A program made the translations under genes and the position numbers. Source: Methylophilus sp. QUAN (lineage in GTDB: Bacteria; Pseudomonadota; Gammaproteobacteria; Burkholderiales; Methylophilaceae). Taken from it: a stretch of DNA of 64,000 bases. Where the stretch lies: assembly GCF_015354445.1 (NCBI RefSeq), contig NZ_JADKYT010000001.1, positions 1,054,001 through 1,118,000 on the forward strand. Reading direction: 5' to 3'. Below the pieces are notes generated by a model that searched no databases, was not told the origin of the DNA, and saw nothing but the letters and a program-made list of their open reading frames with translations. Positions 1-12,653 of this stretch are shown piece after piece (position 1 is the stretch's first letter; each line of letters opens with the position of its first letter).

Positions 1-65
1 TTTTGTCATAAAAGCATCATGAGCTCTTGTTAAGCTATGTGAGATTTGTTAACTCGGAATCCTGC

Positions 66-1265
66 ATGAAAATATTGATGATTTCAGATGTGTATTTCCC
101 GCGCGTGAATGGCGTATCTACCAGCATCCGTACCTTTGCTGAAAGTTTGCGCGAGCAGGGCCATATCGTCCATCTGATTGCACCGCAGTATCCTGTCCAG
201 CCGGGCCAGCCACTGTCGGCAGACGAGGCCTGGATTACCCGCATAGACGCCCGCAAAATCGTGTTTGACCCAGAAGACTATTTAATGAAATGGTCGGCCT
301 TGGTGACTTACATCAACAGCCTGCATCCGGGCGACTATGACCTGGTGCATATCCATACGCCTTTTATTGCGCATTATGCCGGGCTCAAGATTGGCAAGCG
401 CTTGCAAGTGCCCGTGGTGGAAACCTACCACACCTTTTTTGAAGACTATATGCATCATTATTTGCCGTGGGTGCCACGCAAATGGGCAGTGCGCATTGCG
501 CAATCGGTGTCACGCAAGCAATGCCAGCAGGTGGATACCGTGGTATCTCCTTCAGCACAGATGCGCGAGGTCTTGCAGCAATACGGTGTTACCACGCCTA
601 TCACAGTCATCCCGACCGGGCTGGATGCTTCACGCTTTATCCCTGGTGATGGTGCGGCGTTCAGGGAGAAGTATGGTATCCCGGCACAACGTCCTTTATT
701 GATGTTTGTTGGCCGCGTGGCTTATGAAAAAAACATACAGTTCTTGCTCGAAATGCTATCGCTGGTGATTCAGGATCATCCTGAAGTATTGCTGGTGATT
801 ACTGGTGAAGGCCCGGCCGAGGCGATGTTGAAAAAAATGGCGCGTGATAACGGCTTGCAGTCGCACGTGATGTTCCTCGGTTACCTGGACAGGGCGGTTG
901 GATTAAACGCAGCTTATCAGGCGGCAGATATTTTTGTGTTTGCCTCCAAGAGCGAAACGCAAGGCCTGGTCTTATTGGAAGCCATGGCGCAGTCGACGCC
1001 GGTGGTGGCGATTGCCGAATTGGGCACCGCGTCCATTTTACGCCAGGAGCAGGGTGCCTTAATTGCGAAAGACGATGAGTTGCACTTTGCCGAGCAAGTA
1101 CAAACCTTGCTCATAGACCATCAATTGCGTGAGCGCGTTGGTAAGCAAGGCAAACGTTATGTGGAGCAAGTATGGTCCAGCGATGCACAGGCGAACAAAC
1201 TGCTTGAGTGCTATGAGCGCCTGATGCTGACGCATATGCCTATGGCCGCGTCTGCCGCGGCCTAA
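66..1265 (+). CDS. GT4-family glycosyltransferase
   Basis: Retaining GT-B glycosyltransferase of family GT4, probably acting at the cytoplasmic face on a lipid or glycan acceptor; donor and acceptor are not readable from sequence. The N-terminus (MKILMISDVYFPRVNG) is the typical first strand and loop of the family. The nucleotide-sugar binding motif EX7E is present (E297 and E305, in SETQGLVLLEA), after the GEGP loop near residue 247. Length 399 residues is usual. An in-frame TTG lies 39 bases upstream, but the ATG at 66 matches the family start. It resembles diacylglycerol or phosphatidylinositol sugar transferases, so a glycolipid role is possible but inferred. Confidence 0.85.
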   Translation: MKILMISDVYFPRVNGVSTSIRTFAESLREQGHIVHLIAPQYPVQPGQPLSADEAWITRIDARKIVFDPEDYLMKWSALVTYINSLHPGDYDLVHIHTPFIAHYAGLKIGKRLQVPVVETYHTFFEDYMHHYLPWVPRKWAVRIAQSVSRKQCQQVDTVVSPSAQMREVLQQYGVTTPITVIPTGLDASRFIPGDGAAFREKYGIPAQRPLLMFVGRVAYEKNIQFLLEMLSLVIQDHPEVLLVITGEGPAEAMLKKMARDNGLQSHVMFLGYLDRAVGLNAAYQAADIFVFASKSETQGLVLLEAMAQSTPVVAIAELGTASILRQEQGALIAKDDELHFAEQVQTLLIDHQLRERVGKQGKRYVEQVWSSDAQANKLLECYERLMLTHMPMAASAAA

Positions 1266-1678
1266 GTGTAGCGACCTCATTAAAATCCTGATTTTGTGCC
1301 GGGAGGCTTGACGGTCAACCGGCTGCCCGCCAAGATATGGGCAGACTTGTATTGATGCAAGCGCAACCCTATCAGGAGAAATTAACCATGTTTACCCCAG
1401 ACACCTGCTGCACGCTGGTTCCTTATTTTGAAGTGCCTGCCGAGAACCTGGCTGCATTTAAGGCGCTAGGTGCGCAGTTTTTAGACAAGACCCGCAACGA
1501 AACCGACTGTATGCACTATGCATTCTCATTCAGCGGCAATATTGCGCATTGCCGTGAAGGTTATGCCAGTGCAGCTGGCATTCTTGCGCATCTGGAAAAC
1601 GTGGCTGAGCCACTGGGGGAAGCGCTCAAACTGGCGAAGTTGATTCGCCTGGAAGTGCACGCACCGGCGGCAGAAGTG

Positions 1679-1683
1679 GAAAA
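1679..1683. repeat. Putative target-site duplication, left copy (GAAAA)
   Basis: GAAAA directly outside the left terminal inverted repeat, matched by GAAAA at 7507-7511. Removing the island plus one copy restores the ABM reading frame (GAA AAG CTC), which supports a duplication made on insertion. Five A/G-rich bases alone would be weak evidence. Confidence 0.7.
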
Positions 1684-1699
1684 TTTTCCAAACAACATA
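1684..1699 (+). repeat. Left terminal inverted repeat of the island
   Basis: TTTTCCAAACAACATA. Its last 12 bases are the exact reverse complement of 7490-7501; over 16 bases the two ends differ at one position. It begins exactly where the ABM coding sequence breaks off. Confidence 0.82.
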
Positions 1700-1765
1700 C
1701 ACAGTTCGTCAATTTTGCACTGATAAACCGCTTCAATAGTGAGTCTAGTTGGGGATGATCAATAA

Positions 1766-3160
1766 ATGTACCACTTCATGGTCACAACAGATACAGCGGC
1801 TTGGCAAAATGGCTGCGAAGAGTATTCCAAAAGTCGCTTTCTTGAATATACAACTGATGACATTGCATCAAAATTTCAGGCACTAAATTCCTCCACGATT
1901 GAAGAGTTAAAATCCTATCCTTGCTTATGTACCTACGAGGGGGAGTGGGAGCTCTGGGTCGCCAAGATAACAAGCATAGAGGTAGATAAGTTAAGAATAC
2001 GAGTTTTTGTTGAAATTGACCAAACAATTGATTCAATTCCTTTCGCCAGTTTTAAGTCGCAACAAAAGCGTTTTGGAGTTAGCGAGTGGGAGTTCTTCAG
2101 AACTCACTGGGCAATTAAAGAGGGTGATTTATTTGAAAAACTTCATTTCTCGGGTTTGAGTCCTCAAGCCACAGCTTCTCCAGCTATACCTCCGACGCCA
2201 ATACATCAAGCTGTTTCCGATGTTGAAACAATACCAACAATTAGCTCAGTAACTGAATATATCCAAACAGTTATGGGGATGAAGGAGAGCTTCGATCGTG
2301 AGTGCTTTTATCGTGGCCAGCCCGATGAAACATATCTGCTAAAACCTGGTATTTTTCGCACAGATCGAAAAACTGGTATACCTCTCTATCGTGATTATGA
2401 ACATGATATGTTTCGGGAGATTTTAATTTCTAATTCATTCGAGTTTAGAGAGGACAGTTCAACGCTCGATCGTCTTGTGAGAATGCAGCATCATTCCCTT
2501 CCAACGAGGTTGTTAGATATAACAATCAATCCTTTGATTGCCCTGTACTTTGCAGTCTGGACCGAGCTCACTGAAAAACGAAATGTGTCTGGACAGGTGG
2601 TACTCTTTTTCCCAAGCACTGAAAAAGTTAAATATTTTGATTCAGATACGGCGAGCTGTATCGCTAATCTTGCTTTAATGAGTGCTAGTGAGCGGGATCA
2701 AATTAAATTTGATTTAAAAGAAATTAACCAGGACTATGTTCCTGGTGAGAATAAAGAAAGCGATTTGGCGCTCTTTAATGACCAAGAGCAAATTAAACGA
2801 CTTTTGCATTACATAGGTAGTGAAAAGCCTTTCTTCAAGCCTAGAATTAGATCTGAAGATTTACGCTCAGTTATATGTGTGAAAAGTAAGCGTAGTAATG
2901 AGCGTATTTCTTCTCAATCAGGGGCGTTCCTACTCTTCGGGCACGATGTTGTGTTAAACGAGGATGGTACAGATGAGATCAAAGTGAAGCGTATACGAGT
3001 TCAAGATAAAGATAGAATTTTACGTGAGTTGGAGCAGTTAAATATCACGGAAAGTACTGTCTTTCCATCTATAGTCAATGCTGCGAACGATATAGCAAGA
3101 AAATACCGACGTAAAAGTGAAGAGTCACAAAGGGTTGAGCCACCAGTAGCCCCAAACTAG
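1766..3160 (+). CDS. FRG domain-containing protein
   Basis: 464 residues. The FRG domain covers roughly 160-270 and shows its naming motif (FYRGQ at 181-185), then the MQHHSLPTRLLD stretch (about 240-251) followed by NPLIALYFAVW, as in the family. The N-terminal ~140 residues are not recognised, and a proline/alanine-rich linker (about 132-150) joins the two parts. The biochemical activity of FRG proteins is not established. They occur often on mobile islands and beside defence genes, so a defence role is a reasonable guess only. The gene is AT-rich and starts 66 bases inside the left end of the island; no strong ribosome binding site is seen. Confidence 0.8.
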   Translation: MYHFMVTTDTAAWQNGCEEYSKSRFLEYTTDDIASKFQALNSSTIEELKSYPCLCTYEGEWELWVAKITSIEVDKLRIRVFVEIDQTIDSIPFASFKSQQKRFGVSEWEFFRTHWAIKEGDLFEKLHFSGLSPQATASPAIPPTPIHQAVSDVETIPTISSVTEYIQTVMGMKESFDRECFYRGQPDETYLLKPGIFRTDRKTGIPLYRDYEHDMFREILISNSFEFREDSSTLDRLVRMQHHSLPTRLLDITINPLIALYFAVWTELTEKRNVSGQVVLFFPSTEKVKYFDSDTASCIANLALMSASERDQIKFDLKEINQDYVPGENKESDLALFNDQEQIKRLLHYIGSEKPFFKPRIRSEDLRSVICVKSKRSNERISSQSGAFLLFGHDVVLNEDGTDEIKVKRIRVQDKDRILRELEQLNITESTVFPSIVNAANDIARKYRRKSEESQRVEPPVAPN

Positions 3161-3178
3161 ATATGTGGTCTTATTAAT

Positions 3179-3216
3179 CTGGTGCAATGAATTCACATGT
3201 TAATTCATTGCACCAG
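3179..3216. terminator. Perfect 15 bp hairpin between convergent genes
   Basis: CTGGTGCAATGAATT (3179-3193) and AATTCATTGCACCAG (3202-3216) pair perfectly around an 8-base loop, between the 3' ends of the FRG and DUF1330 genes. No run of T follows on either strand, so it is not a classical intrinsic terminator. It may protect 3' ends or act as a factor-dependent or structural site. Confidence 0.5.
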
Positions 3217-3242
3217 GTTGTCGCATTCAGTTGTAGCAGTCT

Positions 3243-3566
3243 TTATTTAGAAAGATAAGGAATGGTGCCTGCAACATCAGTATCATCTATCAATTGAAAA
3301 CGACTTTCGGTGCCATCTTGTCTAGCTTTGGAGTAGGGGGCGTATTCAGGATCATTGGCAAACGCTATTGCTGCATTTTTATCAGGAAACTGGATCAAAG
3401 CAATCAGCGTATTTCCCAATGGTTTACCTTCAAGCACGTCCACATTGGCGCTACGACTTAAATATCTTCCACCATGTTTTTCAGCAATAAGGTGAACATG
3501 TTTCGCATACTCAGGTATCCATTTATCATCTTTAACTAATACATCTGCAATCAAATACGCTGCCAT
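3243..3566 (-). CDS. DUF1330 domain-containing protein
   Basis: 107-residue cytoplasmic protein of the DUF1330 family, a small dimeric alpha/beta ferredoxin-like fold related to ABM proteins; biochemical function unknown. Family features seen: AAYLIADVLVKD at the start, HGGRYLSRS mid-protein and a FPDKNAAIAFANDPEY segment. An AAGGAG ribosome binding site stands at the right distance from the ATG at 3566. It is a single gene on the minus strand, separated by about 210 bases from lysE. As an ABM-like fold inserted within an ABM gene it might look related to the host gene, but sequence and composition show it is island cargo. Confidence 0.8.
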   Translation of the reverse strand: MAAYLIADVLVKDDKWIPEYAKHVHLIAEKHGGRYLSRSANVDVLEGKPLGNTLIALIQFPDKNAAIAFANDPEYAPYSKARQDGTESRFQLIDDTDVAGTIPYLSK

Positions 3567-3777
3567 TTTTCACTCCTTGAGTTTATTAAAAATATCAGTT
3601 CAAGTTCTAAGATTTTATCGATTAAAGTCGAGTGGTGATCATTATTACCCTGGATGACCTAATGTTCAAGAAAAGAGGCGCTGTTGAAAATTCGATGTTT
3701 GAGTAATTAAACGAACTACACGCCTAACACCATCTTCTACTTTTTGAGTCCGTCGGAAACTCACAGCTTTCAATTTT

Positions 3778-4395
3778 CTAAATAACAAATTTGAATAAAA
3801 TTGATATTCCCAGGCACAGCATAATTGCTCCTGAAAAACTCCCAACCCTTTTAGCAACCTTAGGCCTTGCCGATAAGAAATATCTCGATCCAACAGCTAC
3901 GAGTGTATAAACAACTGTGCAACTGGCAATGTGGATTGAAGCTAGTACGATGATTTGAGTTGAAATTTCCCAGTTGGACTCTGTAGAGGTCCAGGGAAGC
4001 AAGAATGCCATAAAGAACAACAGCGCCTTTGGATTAAATCCACTCACCAGAAAGCCTTTGGTAAACCATCTCATCGAGCTTTCTGTTGCAATAGGCGAGC
4101 CTGATGCATATGGCACTGGTGGGTTCCTTAGGGTTGTAACTCCCAGCCATGCAAGATAGCCCCCCCCTCCAATTGTCAGTAAGCTCATCAGCTGAGTGTT
4201 TTGCGAAACCATTAGGCCTATCCCTGTAGCAATAATCCCAGTTAGTACAACGTATCCTGTAAGAAGACCAACTACTGCTGGGATTATCCCTTTACCTCTA
4301 ATACCTGCGGAAATTGCATAAGCCCAGTCAGCACCAGGCGTGAAAACAAACACTAGCGAGAATGCCCAAAATGAAAACAATGTGGTGAACGACAT
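3778..4395 (-). CDS. LysE/RhtB-family amino-acid exporter
   Basis: 205-residue inner-membrane translocator with about six hydrophobic segments and the family signature FTPGADWAYAISAGIRGKG near the N-terminus. Members export amino acids or related small metabolites; the substrate here is unknown. It lies 11 bases downstream of the DUF2000 gene and in the same orientation as the AraC regulator, so the three look like one cassette in which the regulator controls the exporter. The downstream 3567-3777 stretch holds no gene I can support. Confidence 0.85.
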   Translation of the reverse strand: MSFTTLFSFWAFSLVFVFTPGADWAYAISAGIRGKGIIPAVVGLLTGYVVLTGIIATGIGLMVSQNTQLMSLLTIGGGGYLAWLGVTTLRNPPVPYASGSPIATESSMRWFTKGFLVSGFNPKALLFFMAFLLPWTSTESNWEISTQIIVLASIHIASCTVVYTLVAVGSRYFLSARPKVAKRVGSFSGAIMLCLGISILFKFVI

Positions 4396-4406
4396 AAGTA
4401 CCTAAG

Positions 4407-4814
4407 TTATTTGTGTAGTGAAAGGCCTTTGATCGCTTTATCGACTAATTTCTTGGGTCCTCTCAAAGCTAACCCGACAAGATTCAAATTGTATGGATCT
4501 TCTTTTCTAAAGACTTGGCGGTTGCTCTCATCATTGCTGGTGGTAAACATGGAGTGAACGTAGGGAAGCATTTTAATTTCTAGTTCCAAACCTTTTAGGT
4601 GAGCGGATTGAAGCTCATCTAAACCACCTTCAAAGATAAGCATGGGTTGGCCGGACATATTGCCGTAGGCATGCCCACTTGCATTTATGTAAAGCTCTCC
4701 CAAAACTTCAGGAGCAAGTGACGGGATTCCTGTGGCGAGGAAGGCAACTACGTTTAGGCGCTGCCACATGGCAAGATCATTTCTGACAATGATCGCTACT
4801 TTGGTATCAAACAT
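4407..4814 (-). CDS. DUF2000 domain-containing protein
   Basis: 135 residues matching the DUF2000 family (KVAIIVRNDLAMWQRLNV, then VAFLATGI). The function is unknown; the fold is thought to resemble peptidyl-tRNA hydrolase 2. It sits between an AraC regulator and a LysE exporter, a trio I know as recurring in other proteobacteria, so it probably acts on the same metabolite. The gap to the AraC stop is 48 bases. Confidence 0.8.
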   Translation of the reverse strand: MFDTKVAIIVRNDLAMWQRLNVVAFLATGIPSLAPEVLGELYINASGHAYGNMSGQPMLIFEGGLDELQSAHLKGLELEIKMLPYVHSMFTTSNDESNRQVFRKEDPYNLNLVGLALRGPKKLVDKAIKGLSLHK

Positions 4815-4862
4815 TTGGGTCCAATGAACATTGAAAACCCGATTATTTCAATTTTGTTTAGG

Positions 4863-5735
4863 CTAGTCTGTAAGATTTGTGCATTGCTTTTGATAGCTGG
4901 CTGGAGTCATGCGATATGCCCTGCGAAACCAAAGTCCCATATGGCTTTGATCTGCGAAACCAACTTCCATGGCGACTTGTACAGGAGAGAGTCCGAAGGC
5001 AAGCAGTGTTCTAGCTTTACGCAATCTCAGTCTGACTAAATAAGCGTGAGGGGATTGGCCAAATGCATTTTTGAACTGTCGGGTAAGTCTAAATCTGTCA
5101 ATGCCAGTATGATCAGCTACTTCTTCCAATCCAAAATCCTCTGCCATATGAGCATGAATATATTCCCTAGCTCTTTGGACCACTGCACGGGCATCGGATT
5201 TGATTGAAAGAGGCTTATGAAGATGTTTGGATAATTGAAACACCAATTGATCGAGACTTTGATCTCGGGCTAACTTTCCTTCATTGTGGTGGATGGATGT
5301 GAACGCATTCTGTATGGCGTAATGAAGAATTTGATCATCTGCTAAAGTATTTTTAAAAGCAGCTCCAATTGAGGATACATCTCCAAATCCAAGGCTCTGA
5401 GTCATTCCAGACATCCATGATTGAGGAATGTATAGCATTGCATAAGTAAACCCCTCTGGTTCCGGTGCATGACCATCATGCAAGGCACCAGGCTCAATCA
5501 GCATGGTTCTTCCTGGAGTGCTGGTGTGTATGGCACGCCCGCAATTAAATCTTTGAACACCAGTCTGTGTAAAGCCAACTAAAATCTCATCATGATCATG
5601 GGGGTCATACGCATGGCCTTTGAAATGGGCATGCACTGACTCAATGCCTGTCTCAGCATCTCGCTTGATTCTTACCCAGTCTTGATCGGCCAATTCGTTG
5701 TTCATAAAAGTAAATTCAGAAATTAATTCCTGCAA
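4863..5735 (-). CDS. AraC-family transcriptional regulator
   Basis: About 290 residues. The N-terminal cupin-like sensing domain (residues ~35-150, with the metal-site-like HAHFKGHAYDPHDHDE and EPGALHDGH stretches) is followed by a C-terminal pair of helix-turn-helix motifs (about 185-285, containing GLEEVADHTGIDRFRLTRQF and VAMEVGFADQSHMGLWFRR). It probably activates the downstream DUF2000-lysE genes in response to a small ligand. The start is unclear: a TTG at 5735 or an ATG at 5705 (280 residues), neither with a strong ribosome binding site. AT-rich like the rest of the island. Confidence 0.85.
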   Translation of the reverse strand: MQELISEFTFMNNELADQDWVRIKRDAETGIESVHAHFKGHAYDPHDHDEILVGFTQTGVQRFNCGRAIHTSTPGRTMLIEPGALHDGHAPEPEGFTYAMLYIPQSWMSGMTQSLGFGDVSSIGAAFKNTLADDQILHYAIQNAFTSIHHNEGKLARDQSLDQLVFQLSKHLHKPLSIKSDARAVVQRAREYIHAHMAEDFGLEEVADHTGIDRFRLTRQFKNAFGQSPHAYLVRLRLRKARTLLAFGLSPVQVAMEVGFADQSHMGLWFRRAYRMTPASYQKQCTNLTD

Positions 5736-5747
5736 TATTTAAGCTCT

Positions 5748-6623
5748 TTATTTCTTAAACATCAAATCCAATATTCTTTTGTTTTTAATACATCCTTCAT
5801 CAGTCATCGCTCTTGAGGATACTAAGTATTTTTGAGTTTGCTCAACAATTAGTGGATTATGAACCATTGAAAGTTTCACAAATATTTCCTCGTCAAACTC
5901 ATCTGAATCGGTATGCATTATGAGTAGCTTATTGGGTGAAAGGGCAATTGAAATGACATGAATAGGATATGTTTCAGACTGACCACCATTGATCACTACA
6001 GGGCAGTCACCAGTAAGAAAGTGATCTTCACCGCCTGTTAAATGTGTAATAGTCCAACGTAGATTAAAAAAATATTCCAAGGTTTTATGATCGCAAATTG
6101 AGTGGACCATTCCAGTCAGCACACTGTTCCTGGCAAGTGCAGGGATGTCGATATAGCTCATAGGAGGTGGTTGTCCGTACGGTGAACTATTCAATAGATT
6201 GCTCATAGATTGAATTAACTCTTCGGTATGAGCGTTTGCTTTTTCAAGAACTTCATTTATTCGAACGGGCCCTCGTTCTAGAAGGGAGTTTATAAACATA
6301 GACCATATTGTTCGTTCATCAGAATTTAAAGAGGCAACACCGGATTCAACCAATTTTTTATGAATTAAACTAGCGTCATTATCCAGTCGTTTAAAAAAAT
6401 TATCCTCAATATGATTCGAAGGTAAAGTTGGAAATGGGTGTTTTTCCGGTGAGCTTGTGTATAGTCCACGCAAATACGAAACTGAATATGGAGATTTTTT
6501 CCCAATGAACACCTTACCAAACTCATCTTTTGTATGGAGTAGCAACAAGTCTTCATTCTTTACACACCAATGGGCCAAATAAAACTTTGGAACATAATGG
6601 TGACGTTGCAGTTTCTCACTCAT
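5748..6623 (-). CDS. DUF4238 domain-containing protein
   Basis: 291 residues with the DUF4238 hallmark RHHYVPKFYLAHWC at residues 7-20 and the later FLTGDCPVVI segment. Biochemical function is not established; members are scattered, accessory, and often found near restriction and other defence genes. ATG at 6623; the gene ends 12 bases before the possible TTG start of the AraC gene, so co-transcription is possible. Together with the FRG protein it makes a defence role for the island conceivable, but nothing in the sequence proves it. Confidence 0.75.
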   Translation of the reverse strand: MSEKLQRHHYVPKFYLAHWCVKNEDLLLLHTKDEFGKVFIGKKSPYSVSYLRGLYTSSPEKHPFPTLPSNHIEDNFFKRLDNDASLIHKKLVESGVASLNSDERTIWSMFINSLLERGPVRINEVLEKANAHTEELIQSMSNLLNSSPYGQPPPMSYIDIPALARNSVLTGMVHSICDHKTLEYFFNLRWTITHLTGGEDHFLTGDCPVVINGGQSETYPIHVISIALSPNKLLIMHTDSDEFDEEIFVKLSMVHNPLIVEQTQKYLVSSRAMTDEGCIKNKRILDLMFKK

Positions 6624-6676
6624 GCGCTGACCTTTTACCAGTACAATCTTTAAAGAACAGATATTTCACCATAGGC

Positions 6677-6943
6677 TCAATTCACAACTAGCAACTCATC
6701 CCAGTCACCTGTGTAATTTGGGCTCTTAAAGTTACGCTGCATTGTCCAATCATTGGTTTCTTTAGCACCTTCTGATGCGAGCCAGATCGTCCCCCTGGAG
6801 TATTTATTATTGATCTTGTCCATGACATTCATTAGCGATTCTGACTTCTTATCTCGCTCAGTATATCCAAACAAATCAGTTTGTTGACCACCGGCAGCAA
6901 CGGTATCCAATAGCATGCCCCCGGCTTTCTGGTAATAAACTCC
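6677..6943 (-). pseudogene. umuC: umuC 3' fragment (DUF4113 domain of DNA polymerase V-like protein)
   Basis: The encoded stretch begins VYYQKAGGMLLD and continues with QQTDLF, ESLMNVMDKIN, RGTIWLASEG, SPNYTGDWDELLVVN. This is the C-terminal DUF4113 domain found at the end of many UmuC proteins (family: YQKAGVMLLD...GDLF...SPRYTTRWDEL). The catalytic polymerase part is absent. The fragment is fused in frame to a piece of a type III restriction subunit, so it is a recombination scar rather than a working gene. Confidence 0.75.
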
Positions 6944-7030
6944 AGACGTATCCTCAATCAACACAGCCCAATCTGGGTTGTAGGAGTCCAAAGGAGTAGC
7001 AACCTTAAACCACCCTGGTAGCTGGCTTTG
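6944..7030 (-). pseudogene. Fragment of type III restriction endonuclease subunit (Res) C-terminal region
   Basis: Open frame after a TGA at 7031-7033 reading QSQLPGWFKVATPLDSYN, then PDWAVLIEDTSG. The pattern LP-x-WFK-[IV]-x-TP-x(3)-YNPDWA resembles the C-terminal nuclease region of type III Res proteins (usually LPxWFKIxTPxGxYNPDWAV...). Only about 29 residues remain before the sequence switches to umuC at about 6943. Its identity rests on motif recall, not on a search. Confidence 0.6.
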
Positions 7031-7036
7031 TCATTT

Positions 7037-7291
7037 TTACCCTGCTTTTGGTCGCTCGACGACTTCCCAATGGTCCGATTGCTTGTGCCGTAGAAACGGA
7101 TCCATCTTGTCCGAAGTCACAAGTTCGACCCATAGACGGAATTTGGTGCCCAGCGGCTCGGCGCTACGCATTGCTCTTGAGCACTGGACCCGCATAGAAG
7201 GGTTGTAGACCTGACCCGGAATTGGTCTAACTCGATATACTGCGTTTGACCGTTCGCCGGGATTCAGGAACGTCTCAACAATGATATGCAT
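7037..7291 (-). CDS. Hypothetical 84-residue protein, possible captured cassette
   Basis: No function recognised. Features: MHIIVETFLNPGERSNAVYR at the start, conserved-looking RVRPIPGQVYNPSMRVQCSR, no signal peptide or membrane segment. The DNA is noticeably more GC-rich than the rest of the island, so it has a different origin. The ATG at 7291 has only a weak upstream purine stretch. The stretch immediately upstream (7308-7388) has features reminiscent of an integron attC site, so this may be a captured gene cassette; that is speculative. Confidence 0.5.
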   Translation of the reverse strand: MHIIVETFLNPGERSNAVYRVRPIPGQVYNPSMRVQCSRAMRSAEPLGTKFRLWVELVTSDKMDPFLRHKQSDHWEVVERPKAG

Positions 7292-7307
7292 ATTCTGAAA
7301 ATCCTAA

Positions 7308-7388
7308 CGACGTTACTAATGCGCATGCACCTTCGGACTAGACGCTCAACGTTGGAAGACGGTCCCGCTTGACCGAAGGGTTAGAGCG
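7308..7388 (-). other. Possible degenerate attC-like recombination site
   Basis: On the minus strand this GC-rich stretch starts CTCTAACCCTTCGGTCAAGC, contains AACGTTGAGC (a GTTRRRY match) and ends with GTTAGGA, and holds the inverted pair CCTTCGG / CCGAAGG. These recall the outer and inner boxes of integron attC sites, but the R'' box deviates and a matching L' box is missing. Treated as a weak candidate only. Confidence 0.22.
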
Positions 7389-7489
7389 CACTTGACTTCG
7401 GCGTGGTGAGTAGGCTCACAAAGTACCCAAAGCTCTCATTCTAGAATATATGTTATTGAAAAATAGGATTAAATCCAATTCTGACAAGA

Positions 7490-7505
7490 TATGTTGTTTG
7501 GTAAA
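7490..7505 (-). repeat. Right terminal inverted repeat of the island
   Basis: Read on the minus strand: TTTACCAAACAACATA, matching the left end with one mismatch. It ends one base before the GAAAA that precedes the resumed ABM coding sequence. Confidence 0.82.
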
Positions 7506-7506
7506 C

Positions 7507-7511
7507 GAAAA
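7507..7511. repeat. Putative target-site duplication, right copy (GAAAA)
   Basis: Right-hand partner of GAAAA at 1679-1683. One base (C7506) separates it from the symmetric end of the right inverted repeat. Confidence 0.7.
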
Positions 7512-7581
7512 GCTCAAAGCGCCTTTAGCCGCATTGAGCCCACTGTTCTTTGTATTAGAAGCAGGCATCCGCCGCCAGTAA
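7507..7581 (+). pseudogene. Quinol monooxygenase-like (ABM) gene, 3' part
   Basis: Codons from GAA (7507) to the stop TAA (7579-7581) read E-KLKAPLAAL...AGIRRQ, the typical C-terminus of putative quinol monooxygenases (family endings of the type ELETGFRR). Joined to the 5' part ending at 1681 with one copy of GAAAA, it restores an uninterrupted frame. It is followed within 22 bases by a bidirectional terminator shared with the pst operon, which is where the end of an intact gene would be expected. Confidence 0.82.
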
Positions 7582-7600
7582 GTATGGCTGCATAGCAATA

Positions 7601-7629
7601 AAAAAACGCCACATAGTGTGGCGTTTTTT
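7601..7629. terminator. Bidirectional intrinsic terminator (pst operon / ABM gene)
   Basis: AACGCCACA, a 3-base loop and TGTGGCGTT, with A and T runs on both sides so that it can act in both directions. It ends the pst operon on the minus strand (pstB stop at 7645) and, before the island inserted, would have ended the ABM gene on the plus strand (stop at 7581). Confidence 0.88.
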
Positions 7630-7644
7630 ATTCGAGCTTTTACA

Positions 7645-8424
7645 TTAACCAAACTTGCCGGTAATGTAATCTTCGGTTTCTTTACGGCCCGGATTGGTGA
7701 AGATTTTGTCGGTATCGTCATACTCGATCAACTCACCCAGGTACATATACGCGGTGTAGTCGGATACGCGCGCTGCCTGTTGCATATTGTGCGTTACCAC
7801 CAAGATCGTCAGCTTGCTGCGTAACTCGACCATCAGCTCTTCAATGTTAGCGGTCGCAATCGGGTCTAGGGCTGAAGTGGGCTCGTCAAACAGCATGATT
7901 TCCGGGTCAGTGGCCAAGGCGCGGGCAATACACAAACGTTGTTGCTGGCCGCCGGACAGGTTAAATGCCAGGTCGTGTAAGCGGTCTTTGACTTCGTTCC
8001 ACAACGCCGCACCTTTAAGTGCTTCTTCTACCTTGTCGTCCATGATGCGCTTGTTGTTTTCACCACGTACGCGCAGGCCATAAGCCACGTTTTCGTAGAT
8101 GGACTTTGGAAACGGGTTAGGTTTCTGGAACACCATGCTGATACGCATGCGTACTTCAATCGGGTCTACACCTGAATCCAGCACATTGGTGTTGTCCGGG
8201 TGCATCACAATCTCGCCCTGGTATTTATTGCCAGGATATAAATCGTGCATACGGTTAAAACAGCGCAGGAAGGTAGATTTTCCGCAACCGGATGGGCCAA
8301 TCAGCGCCGTGATTTTGTTTTCATACAAAGGCATGGAGATGCCTTTGAGTGCGCGTGCGCCGTTGCTATAAAAAAAGTTTAAATCGCGTGCTTCGGCTTT
8401 TATTGCAGTTGTGACAGTGGCCAT
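7645..8424 (-). CDS. pstB: Phosphate ABC transporter ATP-binding protein PstB
   Basis: 259-residue ATPase that powers high-affinity phosphate import by PstSCA at the inner membrane. Walker [10 protein letters not shown] at 43-51, ABC signature LSGGQQQR at 156-163 and Walker B with LMLFDE around 175-181 followed by the PTSALDP D-loop. Length is normal. It is the last gene of pstSCAB; 25 bases separate it from pstA. No phoU follows in the window: the operon ends at the hairpin at 7601-7629. Confidence 0.97.
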
Positions 8425-8449
8425 GGAGTTTCCTAAATCTTATGTGGCA

Positions 8450-9388
8450 TTACCATTTAATATTTTTACGAATTTTGTAGCGCAACCAGATGGCTGCACC
8501 GTTCATTAACAGCGTGACAACGATAATCAGTGCACCGGTGGCAGCCGCATTGACATGGAATGCATGATCAGGACGCGACAACCAGTTAAACATTTGAATC
8601 GGCATCACAGTAAAGCCTGAAGACAGCCATTCAAAGTTGAGAAATGGTGGTTCAGTTGTGATCGGGCTTGGTGGCAAAAAGGCGATAAACGTCAGTGCAC
8701 CAATGGTAATAATCGGCGCAGTTTCACCCAGGGCGCGTGCCATGCCGATAATGATACCGGTCAGGATGCCGCCGTAAGAGTATTTGAACACGTGATCGTA
8801 AACGACTTGCCATTTGGTTGCACCGACGCCATAAGCGGCTTCGCGGATAGACACCGGGATGGCGCGGATGGCCTCACGGGTCGAGACAATGACAATCGGC
8901 AGAATGAGCAGGCCCAAGGTTAAACCGGCGGTCAGAATGCTTTGGCCGAAGTCCAGCATGTAGACAAACAAGCCCAGTGCCAGCAAGCCGTAAATAATGG
9001 ATGGCACGCCAGCCAGGTTAGACACGTTGATTTCAATCAGGTCGGTAAACCAGTTTTTTGGTGCGTATTCTTCCAGGTATAAGCCGGCCGCGACACCAAT
9101 TGGTACGGCGGTCAAAAACGTGACAGACATTACTAGTAAAGAACCTACCCAGGCAGACAGTAGACCGGCGCGGCCAGCACGGCGCGAAGGAAATTCAGTT
9201 AAAAAATCCAGGTTGAATTTTGGATGTCCATCAGCGATCAATTGCCAGAACAGCAACATCAGTGTCATTAAACCCAGCATCAGGCAAATCAGACCCAGGG
9301 TGGCAAACAGTGTGTCATTGCGCTTGTGGCGTTTAATCATGGCGCGGACATCGGCCAGATTTTCGAGGACAGAAGCTTTATGTTCCAT
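8450..9388 (-). CDS. pstA: Phosphate ABC transporter permease PstA
   Basis: 312-residue inner-membrane permease forming the phosphate channel with PstC. A long cytoplasmic N-terminus is followed by about six transmembrane segments. The permease EAA-type loop is seen around VGATKWQVVYDHV, then GGILTGIIIGMARALGETAPI, which is typical of PstA. It lies between pstC (79-base gap) and pstB (25-base gap) on the minus strand. Confidence 0.96.
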   Translation of the reverse strand: MEHKASVLENLADVRAMIKRHKRNDTLFATLGLICLMLGLMTLMLLFWQLIADGHPKFNLDFLTEFPSRRAGRAGLLSAWVGSLLVMSVTFLTAVPIGVAAGLYLEEYAPKNWFTDLIEINVSNLAGVPSIIYGLLALGLFVYMLDFGQSILTAGLTLGLLILPIVIVSTREAIRAIPVSIREAAYGVGATKWQVVYDHVFKYSYGGILTGIIIGMARALGETAPIITIGALTFIAFLPPSPITTEPPFLNFEWLSSGFTVMPIQMFNWLSRPDHAFHVNAAATGALIIVVTLLMNGAAIWLRYKIRKNIKW

Positions 9389-9467
9389 GGTGTGTTATTT
9401 CCGCATTGGCCAGTAGTCTGGCTACTGGCAGTGTATGGTGGTTATATGTCAGTAATGAGACAGTTTA

Positions 9468-10409
9468 TTAGTAGCTTTCGCGGTATTTTTTGCGTACCCA
9501 GTGACCAAAAATATTGAATGACAGTGTCATCGCCATCAATACCAAGCCTGCAGCAAAAATACTTTGGTAACCAATGCTGCCATGCGGCAAATCACCCATG
9601 GCGACTTGTACGATATACGCAGTAATAGTCGCTGCACTATCCAGTGGGTTAAAGGTCAGGTTAGGTTGCTGACCAGCGGCAATTGCCACCACCATGGTTT
9701 CGCCCACTGCACGAGAAATCGCCAGGATATAAGCAGCCACAATGCCGGAAATCGCTGCTGGTGTGACCACTTTAATGGCTGTCTGGAAGCGCGTCGCACC
9801 CATGGCGTAAGAGCCTTCACGCATACTCATCGGTACGGCGCGCATGGCATCTTCAGACATGGAAGCAATGTACGGAATAATCATGATGCCCATCACAATA
9901 CCGGCACCCAGCATGTTGAAGCTCGGCAGGTCAGGGTAGATGCTTTGCAGCAAAGGTGTGACAAAAAACAGGGCGAAATAGCCAAACACCACAGTAGGTA
10001 CACCGACCAGGAGTTCCAGGATAGGCTTGATGATTTCGCGCGTTTTGTGTGAAGCGAATTCAGACAGAAAAATGGCTGAAATGGTACCAATTGGCACGGC
10101 AACTGCCAGTGCAATAGCCGAGGTGGTCAAGGTGCCGGATACCAGCGGCATAATGCCGTAGTGCGCATCTTCAAATAAGGGCGTCCATTGCGTGTCTGTA
10201 AAAAACTCGATGACGGACACTGTTTTGAAAAAACTCAGCGATTCGTACAGCAACACGCCGACAATGGCAAATGTGGTGGCGACAGCGACCAGGGCTGCCA
10301 TCATCAGGATCAGTTCAATAATCCGCTCTTTGACATTGCGGCGGATATTTTTCGCCAGTCTGGGGCTGATGGTCAGTTGCACGGGAGCTTGCATTGCTTG
10401 GGTCGCCAT
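9468..10409 (-). CDS. pstC: Phosphate ABC transporter permease PstC
   Basis: 313-residue inner-membrane permease with about six transmembrane segments. Typical elements are the loop MGATRFQTAIKVVTPAAISG and the motif ISRAVGETMVVAIAAGQQP. First of the three membrane/ATPase genes after pstS. An intrinsic terminator lies between pstS and this gene, so its transcription probably depends on partial read-through or its own promoter. Confidence 0.96.
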   Translation of the reverse strand: MATQAMQAPVQLTISPRLAKNIRRNVKERIIELILMMAALVAVATTFAIVGVLLYESLSFFKTVSVIEFFTDTQWTPLFEDAHYGIMPLVSGTLTTSAIALAVAVPIGTISAIFLSEFASHKTREIIKPILELLVGVPTVVFGYFALFFVTPLLQSIYPDLPSFNMLGAGIVMGIMIIPYIASMSEDAMRAVPMSMREGSYAMGATRFQTAIKVVTPAAISGIVAAYILAISRAVGETMVVAIAAGQQPNLTFNPLDSAATITAYIVQVAMGDLPHGSIGYQSIFAAGLVLMAMTLSFNIFGHWVRKKYRESY

Positions 10410-10500
10410 AGTGTGTTGATCTTTTACTAATGATCAAGAGTATTGATCTGCCAGGGAAGAATTTTAGCGGATAATCCGCAGTTCAGGCCGAGTCATCACT

Positions 10501-10529
10501 AAAAAAGGGGCATTGCAGCCCCTTTTTTA
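10501..10529 (-). terminator. Intrinsic terminator between pstS and pstC
   Basis: Stem AAAAAAGGGGC / GCCCCTTTTTT, with loop ATTGCA, four bases beyond the pstS stop codon. With T runs in both orientations it should end most pstS transcripts and so set a high ratio of binding protein to permease. Confidence 0.82.
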
Positions 10530-10532
10530 TGA

Positions 10533-11528
10533 TTACTTGATGCGGGATAACAAGTCAGTAATCTTGATGCCGACTTCTGAGGTCCCGTTAAAGCCAGTGC
10601 CTGGTTTCATCGCCTTGAAGTGTTCTTTCACGGCAGTGTAATCTGCTTTTGGCAGTGGCACATATTTCACTTCTTTCACCAGTTCTGGCGCATTTTCCAG
10701 ATAGTAGTTCACGAAAGCTTTGATCTCTGGTTTGAATGCTGCAGAAGTAGCATTCACGTAAATGAACAGCGGGCGTGACAGTGGTTGATAGGTACCATCC
10801 ATCACAGTCGCTTCGGATGGCAACACCGGTTTACCACCTTCTTTAGCCACTACAGGGACCGCTTTCAGCTTGTCCGTGTTTTCCAGGTAGTAAGCCAGGC
10901 CGAAGTAGGCCATGCCGCCTGCGTTACCGGCTACGCCTTGTACCAATACGTTGTCATCTTCTGATGGTGTGTAGTCTGTGCGGCTGGATTTTGCTTTGCC
11001 GTTAACTGCTTCGGTGAAGTAGTCAAAAGTACCAGAAGCGGTGCCTGGACCGTACAAGTTAATTGGCTTGTCTGGGTAAGTCGCATTCACTTCTTTCCAG
11101 CTTTTCACTTTGGAGCCTGGCTCCCAGATTTTTTTCAGTTCTGCGACGGTGATTTGTTTCACCCAGTCGTTTTTACCGTTCACGACTACGGTCAATGCAT
11201 CGTAAGCGATAGGCAGTTCAATAAACTGTACGCCGCCTTCTTTACACGCATCGATTTCTTTTTGTGAAATAGGGCGGGAAGCATCCGAAATATCAGTTTC
11301 GCCACGGCAGAACTTCTTAAAGCCGCCGCCAGTACCGGATTCGCCGACAGTGACCTTCACGCCTTTAGCGCGTTGGAATTCTTCAGCCACGGCCTCGGTA
11401 ATCGGGTAAACCGTGCTGGAACCATCAATCTTGATGATTTTGTCCGCAGCCGCTGCTGAGTGCGCGAAGCTAAATGCCTGAACGATCAGACCGGCCATTA
11501 AAGTATTGCGGAACAAACGGGTTTTCAT
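10533..11528 (-). CDS. pstS: Periplasmic phosphate-binding protein PstS
   Basis: 331 residues with a Sec signal peptide (cleavage probably after AHSAAAA, about residue 27). Phosphate-contacting motifs of the family are present: [42 protein letters not shown] (read in parts) and [13 protein letters not shown]. It captures phosphate in the periplasm and delivers it to PstCA. AGGAG precedes the ATG. A PhoB-type box lies 60-77 bases upstream of the start. Confidence 0.97.
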
Positions 11529-11587
11529 CTATACACTCCTGTGTTTGGTGTTGTCTGTTGTGATGCACGAAATCATAAAAACTTAAT

Positions 11588-11605
11588 ATGACAGAAATGT
11601 GACAA
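11588..11605 (-). promoter_or_regulatory. Pho box upstream of pstS
   Basis: On the minus strand: TTGTCAC, 4 bases, CTGTCAT. This is the two 7-base direct repeats at an 11-base period recognised by PhoB. It is placed correctly to drive pstS under phosphate starvation. Confidence 0.82.
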
Positions 11606-11610
11606 AAAAT

Positions 11611-11637
11611 AAAAAAGGCGCAGTCTGCGCCCTTTTT
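11611..11637 (-). terminator. Intrinsic terminator after pitA
   Basis: GGCGCA / TGCGCC stem flanked by A and T runs, 14 bases after the pitA stop. It separates the DUF47-pitA unit from the pstS promoter region. Confidence 0.8.
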
Positions 11638-11651
11638 ATCGTTGATTTTCC

Positions 11652-12653
11652 TTACAGCAAGCTTTCACCAATATGGTAGGCAATGGCGGCCATGATGGCG
11701 GCGCAAGGGATGGTCAGCACCCAGGCCCAGACGATGCGGGAAGCCAGTCCCCAGCGTACAGCCGTCATGCGGCGTGATAGGCCGACACCGACAATCGCAC
11801 CGGTAATGGTATGGGTGGTTGAGACCGGAATGCCTAAACTGGTCGCCAGGAATAAGGCAATTGAACCTGACGTTTGCGCGGCAAAGCCACCCGTGGGCCG
11901 AATTTTGGTAATGCCCATGCCCATGGTGCGCACAATACGCCAGCCACCAAACAGCGTGCCCAGGCCCATCGCCAGTTGGCATGAAATCACCACCCAGAAC
12001 GGGACGTGAAAGTCACCGTGCAGATAGCCATTGGCAAACAGCAACACAGTGATGATGCCCATGGTTTTTTGCGCATCGTTGGCGCCATGGCCCAGGCTGA
12101 ATAATGAAGATGAGATAAATTGTAGCTTGTTAAACCGGCTTTCGATTTTATAGGGCGATGATTTTTGAAACACCCACATAATGCCAATTGACAGCAGCAG
12201 TGCCAGTATCATGCCAAACAGTGGCGACAGGATAATGGCGATGCCGGTACTGATCAACTTGCTGCCTAAAATCACGCCTTTGGTGCCAGAATGTGCCATG
12301 CCTGCGCCAATCAGGCCGCCAATCAGTGCGTGAGATGAAGAAGAGGGGATGCCGAACCACCAGGTGATCACATTCCAGGCGATGGCGCCAAATAGCGCGC
12401 CAAAAATGACCGTGTTATTGACAATGTTGGGGTCAATAATGCCTTTGCCCACGGTGTCAGCCACGTGCAGGCCAAAAAACAAAAAAGCGACAAAGTTGAA
12501 AAAGGCAGCCCAGATCACGGCCGCCTGCGGGGTGAGTAAACGGGTGGACACCATGAGCGCAATCGAGTTGGCCGCATCGTGAAAACCGTTCATAAAGTCA
12601 AAAATCAGGGCGACGAAGACGAGCACCGCCATGACCAAAATCACATGATCCAT
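11652..12653 (-). CDS. pitA: Low-affinity inorganic phosphate transporter (PiT family)
   Basis: 333-residue inner-membrane symporter for (metal) phosphate. The duplicated PiT signature is visible: FDFMNGFHDAANSIA at the N-terminus and SLGHGANDAQKTMGII in the second half, each with the GxxDxxN-like core; about ten hydrophobic segments. It starts 9 bases after the DUF47 stop codon with an AGGA ribosome binding site, so the two form one operon. Phosphate or metal-phosphate specificity cannot be read directly. Confidence 0.94.
   Translation of the reverse strand: MDHVILVMAVLVFVALIFDFMNGFHDAANSIALMVSTRLLTPQAAVIWAAFFNFVAFLFFGLHVADTVGKGIIDPNIVNNTVIFGALFGAIAWNVITWWFGIPSSSSHALIGGLIGAGMAHSGTKGVILGSKLISTGIAIILSPLFGMILALLLSIGIMWVFQKSSPYKIESRFNKLQFISSSLFSLGHGANDAQKTMGIITVLLFANGYLHGDFHVPFWVVISCQLAMGLGTLFGGWRIVRTMGMGITKIRPTGGFAAQTSGSIALFLATSLGIPVSTTHTITGAIVGVGLSRRMTAVRWGLASRIVWAWVLTIPCAAIMAAIAYHIGESLL

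Follow-up and report, generated by a model that had tools for sequence, protein, structure and literature searches.

How did a 5.8-kb block of genes enter a small chromosomal gene of Methylophilus sp. QUAN, and what kind of element is it? The window analyzed here (64,000 nucleotides, positions 1054001-1118000 of the 3.15-Mb genome) contains such an insert, spanning 1684-7505 and bounded by 16-bp inverted repeats. It sits between two genes that we take, by eye, to be a glycosyltransferase-like gene (27-1265) and a pstB-like gene (7645-8424). An initial annotation, made from the sequence alone, described the insert as an unclassified transposon-like element. In this study, comparison with related genomes revealed a single clean insertion into a small MupZ-like gene (121 codons in relatives), which is split after 296 of its 366 nt. 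The product of the interrupted gene is related to MupZ (PDB 6fxd; phmmer, E 2.5e-34), and its reading frame in the window enters the element and stops at 1723. With the window's own copy left out, 13 loci of genus relatives matched the left flank. Nine of these align across the junction without the insert at 69-97% identity: G007 (the closest, 97%), G008, G005, G021, G004, G001, G018, G003, and G002. At the empty site, the sequence in G007 is GTGGAAAAGCTC; the window shows GTGGAAAA-insert-CGAAAAGCTC at this place. The other four loci are short partial matches; in G011 the match falls at this locus, where the MupZ-like gene survives as a degraded piece, and those of G005 (a second hit), G015, and G016 are located elsewhere. 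Because the empty sites are clean, the boundary of the element is fixed by comparison, beyond the repeats alone, and the clean junction that the initial annotation had expected at related sites was found. We are almost certain that the locus records one insertion of an end-defined, non-autonomous unit.

The ends themselves are distinctive. As first described, they are inverted and share a 12-bp perfect core, CCAAACAACATA; the full 16-bp repeats match at 15 of 16 positions (94% complementary). When the ends were shuffled 200,000 times, 15/16 was never reached (the maximum, 14, was seen in two shuffles). Among 58,176 placements with the same spacing in the window, only two score 15; these start at 1683 and 1684 and represent one site in two registers. 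Beyond the repeats, the likeness of the two ends is not above that of shuffles (p 0.42). GAAAA had also been placed next to both ends. On the left it abuts the repeat directly; on the right one C (7506) intervenes. The left junction, GGAAAATTTTCC (1678-1689), is a perfect 12-bp palindrome composed of target and element bases.

No gene for the enzyme responsible was recognized in the element. No transposase or integrase was found among 10 open reading frames (ORFs) scanned with Pfam and eight each scanned with NCBIfam and PADLOC, the short stop-to-stop fragments of non-coding zones being unscanned; this agrees with the absence reported at the outset. Rfam gave no match in positions 1-12000 of the window. 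The extra C at 7506 means that a 5-bp duplication is not the sole reading of the junctions. Three readings fit, all of them resting on a single copy of the element. GAAAA may be a 5-bp duplication, and the repeats are then one base out of register. GAAA may be a 4-bp duplication, with an element of 1683-7506 and 17-bp repeats, RTTTWCCAAACAACATA, whose outermost base differs. The flanks may also be 6-bp tyrosine-recombinase spacers, GGAAAA on the left and CGAAAA on the right, beside symmetric 16-bp arms. With such spacers, the left one is identical to the target 6 bp of G007 and G005, and the right one would have been carried over from a former insertion site. Across the nine intact orthologues, the corresponding 6 bp read GGAAAA (two), AGAAAA (one), CGAAAA (one, G018), CGAGAA (two), TGAGAA (one), and TGAAAA (two). 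A DDE mechanism with the 5-bp duplication read by the initial annotation is therefore not established, since the extra C also permits a 4-bp duplication or 6-bp spacers.

One gene of the element, encoding a DUF1330 protein, shows an unexpected coincidence with the target. DUF1330 DNA was searched for in 22 genus genomes, with two candidates scored per genome, so that absence is the weaker evidence. It was found in six (the window, G006, G010, G011, G015, and G016). The gene of the element shares 79-85% DNA identity with those of the five relatives, and in all five DUF1330 lies between the same two flanking genes as the element; its orientation is that of the window in three relatives and the opposite in two. 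Besides the gene itself, the homology takes in about 50 bp on the upstream side, where G006 matches best, and a hairpin downstream that resembles those in G006, G015, and G016. In the interval between the glycosyltransferase-like and pstB-like genes, no MupZ-like gene was seen in G006, G015, and G016; a decayed MupZ-like remnant precedes DUF1330 in G010 and G011. DUF1330 was not matched in the nine genomes with an intact MupZ-like gene. The two were never seen together in 15 genomes (six with DUF1330, nine with the intact gene), and neither was found in the other seven of the 22, a count that ignores shared descent. The element thus brings along a gene that, in other members of the genus, is located where the gene broken by the insertion would be. 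By analogy with SE-6283 and bcp (see below), the element's DUF1330 may substitute for the MupZ-like gene that the insertion breaks. A profile comparison with shallow profiles found no sequence relation between DUF1330 and the interrupted protein. Single-sequence folds reached a mean predicted local distance difference test (pLDDT) score of 66 for the interrupted protein and 62 for DUF1330, and the low-confidence model of the former gave no reliable Foldseek match (best E 0.21). The slot between the glycosyltransferase-like and pstB-like genes is variable in the genus, holding a MupZ-like gene or DUF1330, in both orientations (L283, L288-L291, L293). An additional MgtC-like gene (named by eye; 240 residues, or 266 with an earlier start in G016) lies in the slot of G008, G015, and G016.

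Sister copies of the element, with other cargo or with a transposase between the same ends, would define a family, as the initial annotation proposed. A second pair of ends was not found in the own genome, genus, family, order, class, or the viral and genome contigs; figures for the contig collections refer to the matches listed, the order and class were sampled with 399 and 369 genomes, and no search was exhaustive. In the own genome, up to three mismatches gave 74 sites vs. 70 for a reversed control, and no other pair of ends. Among the 22 genus genomes, up to one mismatch returned the own pair only; with up to two, the matches listed (ending within G020) contained no further inward pair spaced 20 kb or less. 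In 187 family genomes, site counts with up to two mismatches were similar to the control; three inward pairs within 20 kb (G026, G034, and G029), picked by eye among the family matches listed (G022-G044), do not repeat the flank. With one mismatch, the order gave no other pair of ends. In the class, also with one mismatch, the one inward pair within 20 kb (G748, 3.07 kb) was rejected, its flank not being repeated, and the ends of a pair in G812 lie 92 kb apart. In viral contigs (at least 120 stretches), no pair among the matches listed combined close ends with a flank repeat in register; some distant pairs, e.g., L062, share 4-6 flank bases by chance offsets. A circle-joint pattern gave no match in viral contigs. 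In genome contigs (at least 116 stretches, with loci no longer than 8 kb), the outer bases of the best partner listed, in L191 (one mismatch in 12), do not fit. Repeated genome-contig matches in Colwellia and others resemble one conserved gene, judging from shared sequence context without annotation.

When the ends were compared by similarity with the class genomes, the best foreign match (G587, E 4.6e-4) lay in a coding region and had no partner; among plasmids, 30 records were returned at E<=10, all with E of 2 or more. IS1380-type transposases make 4-5-bp duplications, and IS1380 was tried as parent. It was rejected as unsupported: the own genome has no transposase match, and eight loci examined have no pair of such ends. 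Within the family, IS1380-type transposases occur in 7 of 187 genomes at E<=0.001 and in 4 of 187 over the Pfam cut-off. In the literature, the core CAAACAACATA was not met together with "inverted repeat" and "transposon".

The explanation that we favor, with evenly balanced confidence, is a non-autonomous, cargo-carrying DDE-type element moved in trans. It is preferred because cassettes of this sort are frequent and the flanking bases have the appearance of a duplication. A transposase of the DDE type, encoded at another place, would recognize the ends of roughly 16-17 bp with their shared core and would cut the unit out or copy it. Insertion at GAAA(A) would follow, into a cut staggered by 4 or 5 bp, whose repair would yield the flanking repeat. 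It would act like a mobile insertion cassette (MIC), its own transposase lost or never present, with accessory genes carried instead. Of the cargo carrier mobilized in trans that the initial annotation had suggested, the recombinase-less unit is borne out by its inverted ends, the repeated flank, and the nine empty sites; the DDE assignment with a 5-bp duplication is not established. In favor of the explanation are the quality of the inverted ends and their singularity at this spacing in the window, the nine uninterrupted sites, the GAAAA repeat at both junctions, accessory genes of other origin (the FRG gene, scarce in the family, and the AraC-DUF2000 pair, present on plasmids), and the lower G+C content of most of the insert (detailed below). 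Several points weigh against it. The non-exhaustive searches turned up neither a second copy nor a transposase bounded by such ends, and IS1380-type transposases pass the Pfam cut-off in just four of the 187 family genomes, with none in the own genome. A 5-bp duplication puts the repeats one base out of register, and a 4-bp duplication leaves the outermost base of the 17-bp repeat differing (A/G). Moreover, the DUF1330 coincidence is unexplained by random DDE insertion.

A doubtful but possible alternative is a tyrosine-recombinase element of the sort of Tn554, GInts, or strand-biased circularizing integrative elements (SEs), whose recombinase genes have been lost. The 16-bp repeats would be inverted core-binding arms around a 6-bp spacer; GGAAAA on the left would be the target's 6 bp, and CGAAAA on the right those of the site occupied before, which could be this very gene in a different species. 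DUF1330 would replace the gene broken, as SE-6283 carries a bcp copy on entering bcp. What gives this alternative weight is that no other reading accounts at once for the extra C, the register, and the substitute gene. The arms are symmetric around CGAAAA only, which accounts for the extra C, but the target arms have no likeness to the repeats visible by eye. The 6 bp of the site indeed read GGAAAA in G007 and G005 and CGAAAA in G018; however, the CGAAAA allele is present in just one of nine intact orthologues, and a 5/6 flank match equals that of an ordinary target duplication. Published passages on SEs give a repeat size, a 6-bp spacer, an arrangement of old and new 6 bp, and an A-rich or T-rich center that can be read into this site, whereas the spacer rule rests here on one copy, the 10-17-nt imperfect direct repeats of GInts are absent, and no tyrosine recombinase is encoded among the scanned ORFs. 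DUF1330 and the intact target gene were not seen together in the 15 genomes, yet the shallow profiles show no relation between the two proteins, and the single-sequence fold gave no reliable match. A more specific form, which we consider unlikely, is an SE-like class with orphan ends served by recombinases in trans. It would be specific for the Glu-Lys codons of the MupZ-like gene, would keep CGAAAA from an earlier host species, and would compensate with DUF1330.

Two further histories concern how the 5.8 kb was assembled. It is quite unlikely that a small MITE-like inverted-repeat element inserted first and that genes were added inside later, the 5.8 kb never having moved as a unit. The mosaic cargo would suit this history, with DUF1330 and its hairpin resembling the slot of relatives, fused UmuC and helicase fragments, and an attC-like remnant near the right end; neither the own genome nor any of the nine empty sites revealed a short version of the element. 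It is hardly credible that a DNA circle integrated illegitimately through GAAAA microhomology and acquired its inverted ends by chance: five shared bases suffice for such an event, but ends of this quality arose in none of the 200,000 shuffles. The features of the element and of its insertion site are listed in Table 1.

Table 1. Features of the element and its insertion site (positions in the window).
Feature	Positions	Strand	Basis or remark
Left terminal inverted repeat, TTTTCCAAACAACATA	1684..1699	+	Sequence; repeat search
Right terminal inverted repeat, TATGTTGTTTGGTAAA (reverse complement TTTACCAAACAACATA)	7490..7505	-	Sequence; repeat search
GAAAA, left flanking copy	1679..1683		6 bp beside repeat are GGAAAA, 1678-1683; empty sites
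Extra C between right repeat and GAAAA	7506		Decides between junction models
GAAAA, right flanking copy	7507..7511		6 bp beside repeat are CGAAAA, 7506-7511; empty sites
MupZ-like gene, first 296 of 366 nt	1388..1683	+	Intact 121-aa protein in G007; phmmer
MupZ-like gene, last 70 nt	7512..7581	+	Sequence; empty-site alignment
FRG-domain protein, 464 aa, candidate phage-defense family PDC-S15	1766..3160	+	Pfam FRG E 3.5e-18; PADLOC PDC-S15 E 7e-97
Perfectly abutting 22-nt palindrome, terminator-like, between FRG and DUF1330	3176..3219		Repeat search
DUF1330 protein, 107 aa	3243..3566	-	Pfam
LysE-type translocator	3778..4395	-	Pfam E 9.5e-25
DUF2000 protein	4407..4814	-	Pfam E 3e-38
AraC-family regulator	4863..5735	-	Pfam
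DUF4238 protein	5748..6623	-	Pfam E 4e-26
Fused fragments: UmuC C-terminus (DUF4113, about 6677-6950) and helicase-like (about 6960-7020)	6677..7020	-	Pfam, NCBIfam
84-aa ORF	7037..7291	-	Distant homologues in 7 plasmid records, <60% identity
Shortened integron attC-like site	7343..7386	-	Sequence, by eye

The cargo is of mixed character. At E<=1e-20, the FRG gene was found in 2 of 187 family genomes, including the own genome; its sole other relative in the family (46%, L282:9073-10374, from another genus) adjoins a type IIG restriction-modification gene, a neighborhood in line with a defense role. The AraC-DUF2000 gene pair is also present on enterobacterial plasmids, with 62-67% DNA identity. 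The UmuC fragment covers the last 86 positions of the UmuC profile (336-421 of 422), and 61 bp of the helicase-like fragment are 79% identical to a DEAD/DEAH helicase gene carried by a Providencia plasmid. These two fragments are joined in frame, giving one 104-aa ORF plus an upstream remnant. The stretch at 7343-7386 resembles, by eye, a shortened attC site of an integron cassette, and 34 bp of it recur, 97% identical, within a longer site of this kind in G008 (L284). About ten other family genomes give short matches to this stretch, which suggest cassette arrays in those genomes. The G+C content is about 36-46% in most 400-base windows inside the element vs. about 49-54% upstream, and about 48-52% at 6801-7400. 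The UmuC, helicase, and attC fragments show what appears to be a cargo patched together before or after insertion.

Elements that lack their own enzyme are hard to recognize, since searches set out from that enzyme. In this case the unit is defined by its ends instead of a protein, and its boundary is proven by the empty sites. MICs and, e.g., TIMEs are non-autonomous derivatives of DDE elements, and known MICs share their ends with a named parent insertion sequence or transposon. The element resembles MICs in its inverted ends, short flanking repeat, accessory genes, and lack of a transposase in the scanned ORFs; it differs in that no parent with its ends was found in searches that were non-exhaustive or sampled, and a parent may lie outside the genomes covered. 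As a DDE derivative, the element would be an ordinary but orphan cargo cassette with a candidate defense gene. Tn3 elements have 38-bp repeats starting with GGGG and encode TnpA, Tn7/Mu-like elements have TGT...ACA ends and a TnsB/MuA-type transposase, and both make 5-bp duplications. The element differs from both, since its ends start with neither GGGG nor TGT, as had been noted from the beginning, and its scanned ORFs include no transposase gene.

Among elements with other enzymes, GInts encode three integrases; the published passages propose 6-nt staggered cuts and describe 10-17-nt imperfect direct repeats (PMC5385486) and report GInts in Betaproteobacteria (PMC10214605, PMC5385486). The element shares variable cargo with them but has no recognized ginABCD genes and no integrase ORF, and its direct flanking repeat is 5 bp. 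SEs are described as having 13-19-bp imperfect inverted repeats and a 6-bp spacer, with the target 6 bp at one end and the old 6 bp at the other (PMC10214605). The same source reports SE homologues to be absent from Alpha- and Betaproteobacteria; judging by gene content, the present host would itself be a methylotrophic betaproteobacterium (Methylophilaceae). Passages elsewhere give an A-rich or T-rich center and state that SE-6283 enters bcp and carries a bcp gene (PMC9345347). If the flanks here are 6-bp recombinase spacers, the right junction would preserve a trace of where the element resided before, and the relation of DUF1330 to the MupZ-like gene would provide a natural example of an element replacing what its insertion breaks. 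The four core genes of SEs (intA, CDS2/tfp, intB, and CDS4/srap) are unrecognized in the element, with no tfp or srap profile known in the libraries used. Its likeness to SEs lies in the 16-bp imperfect inverted ends, the 6-bp spacer that one reading of the single copy places at each end, the insertion in a gene, and the possible substitute gene that it carries.

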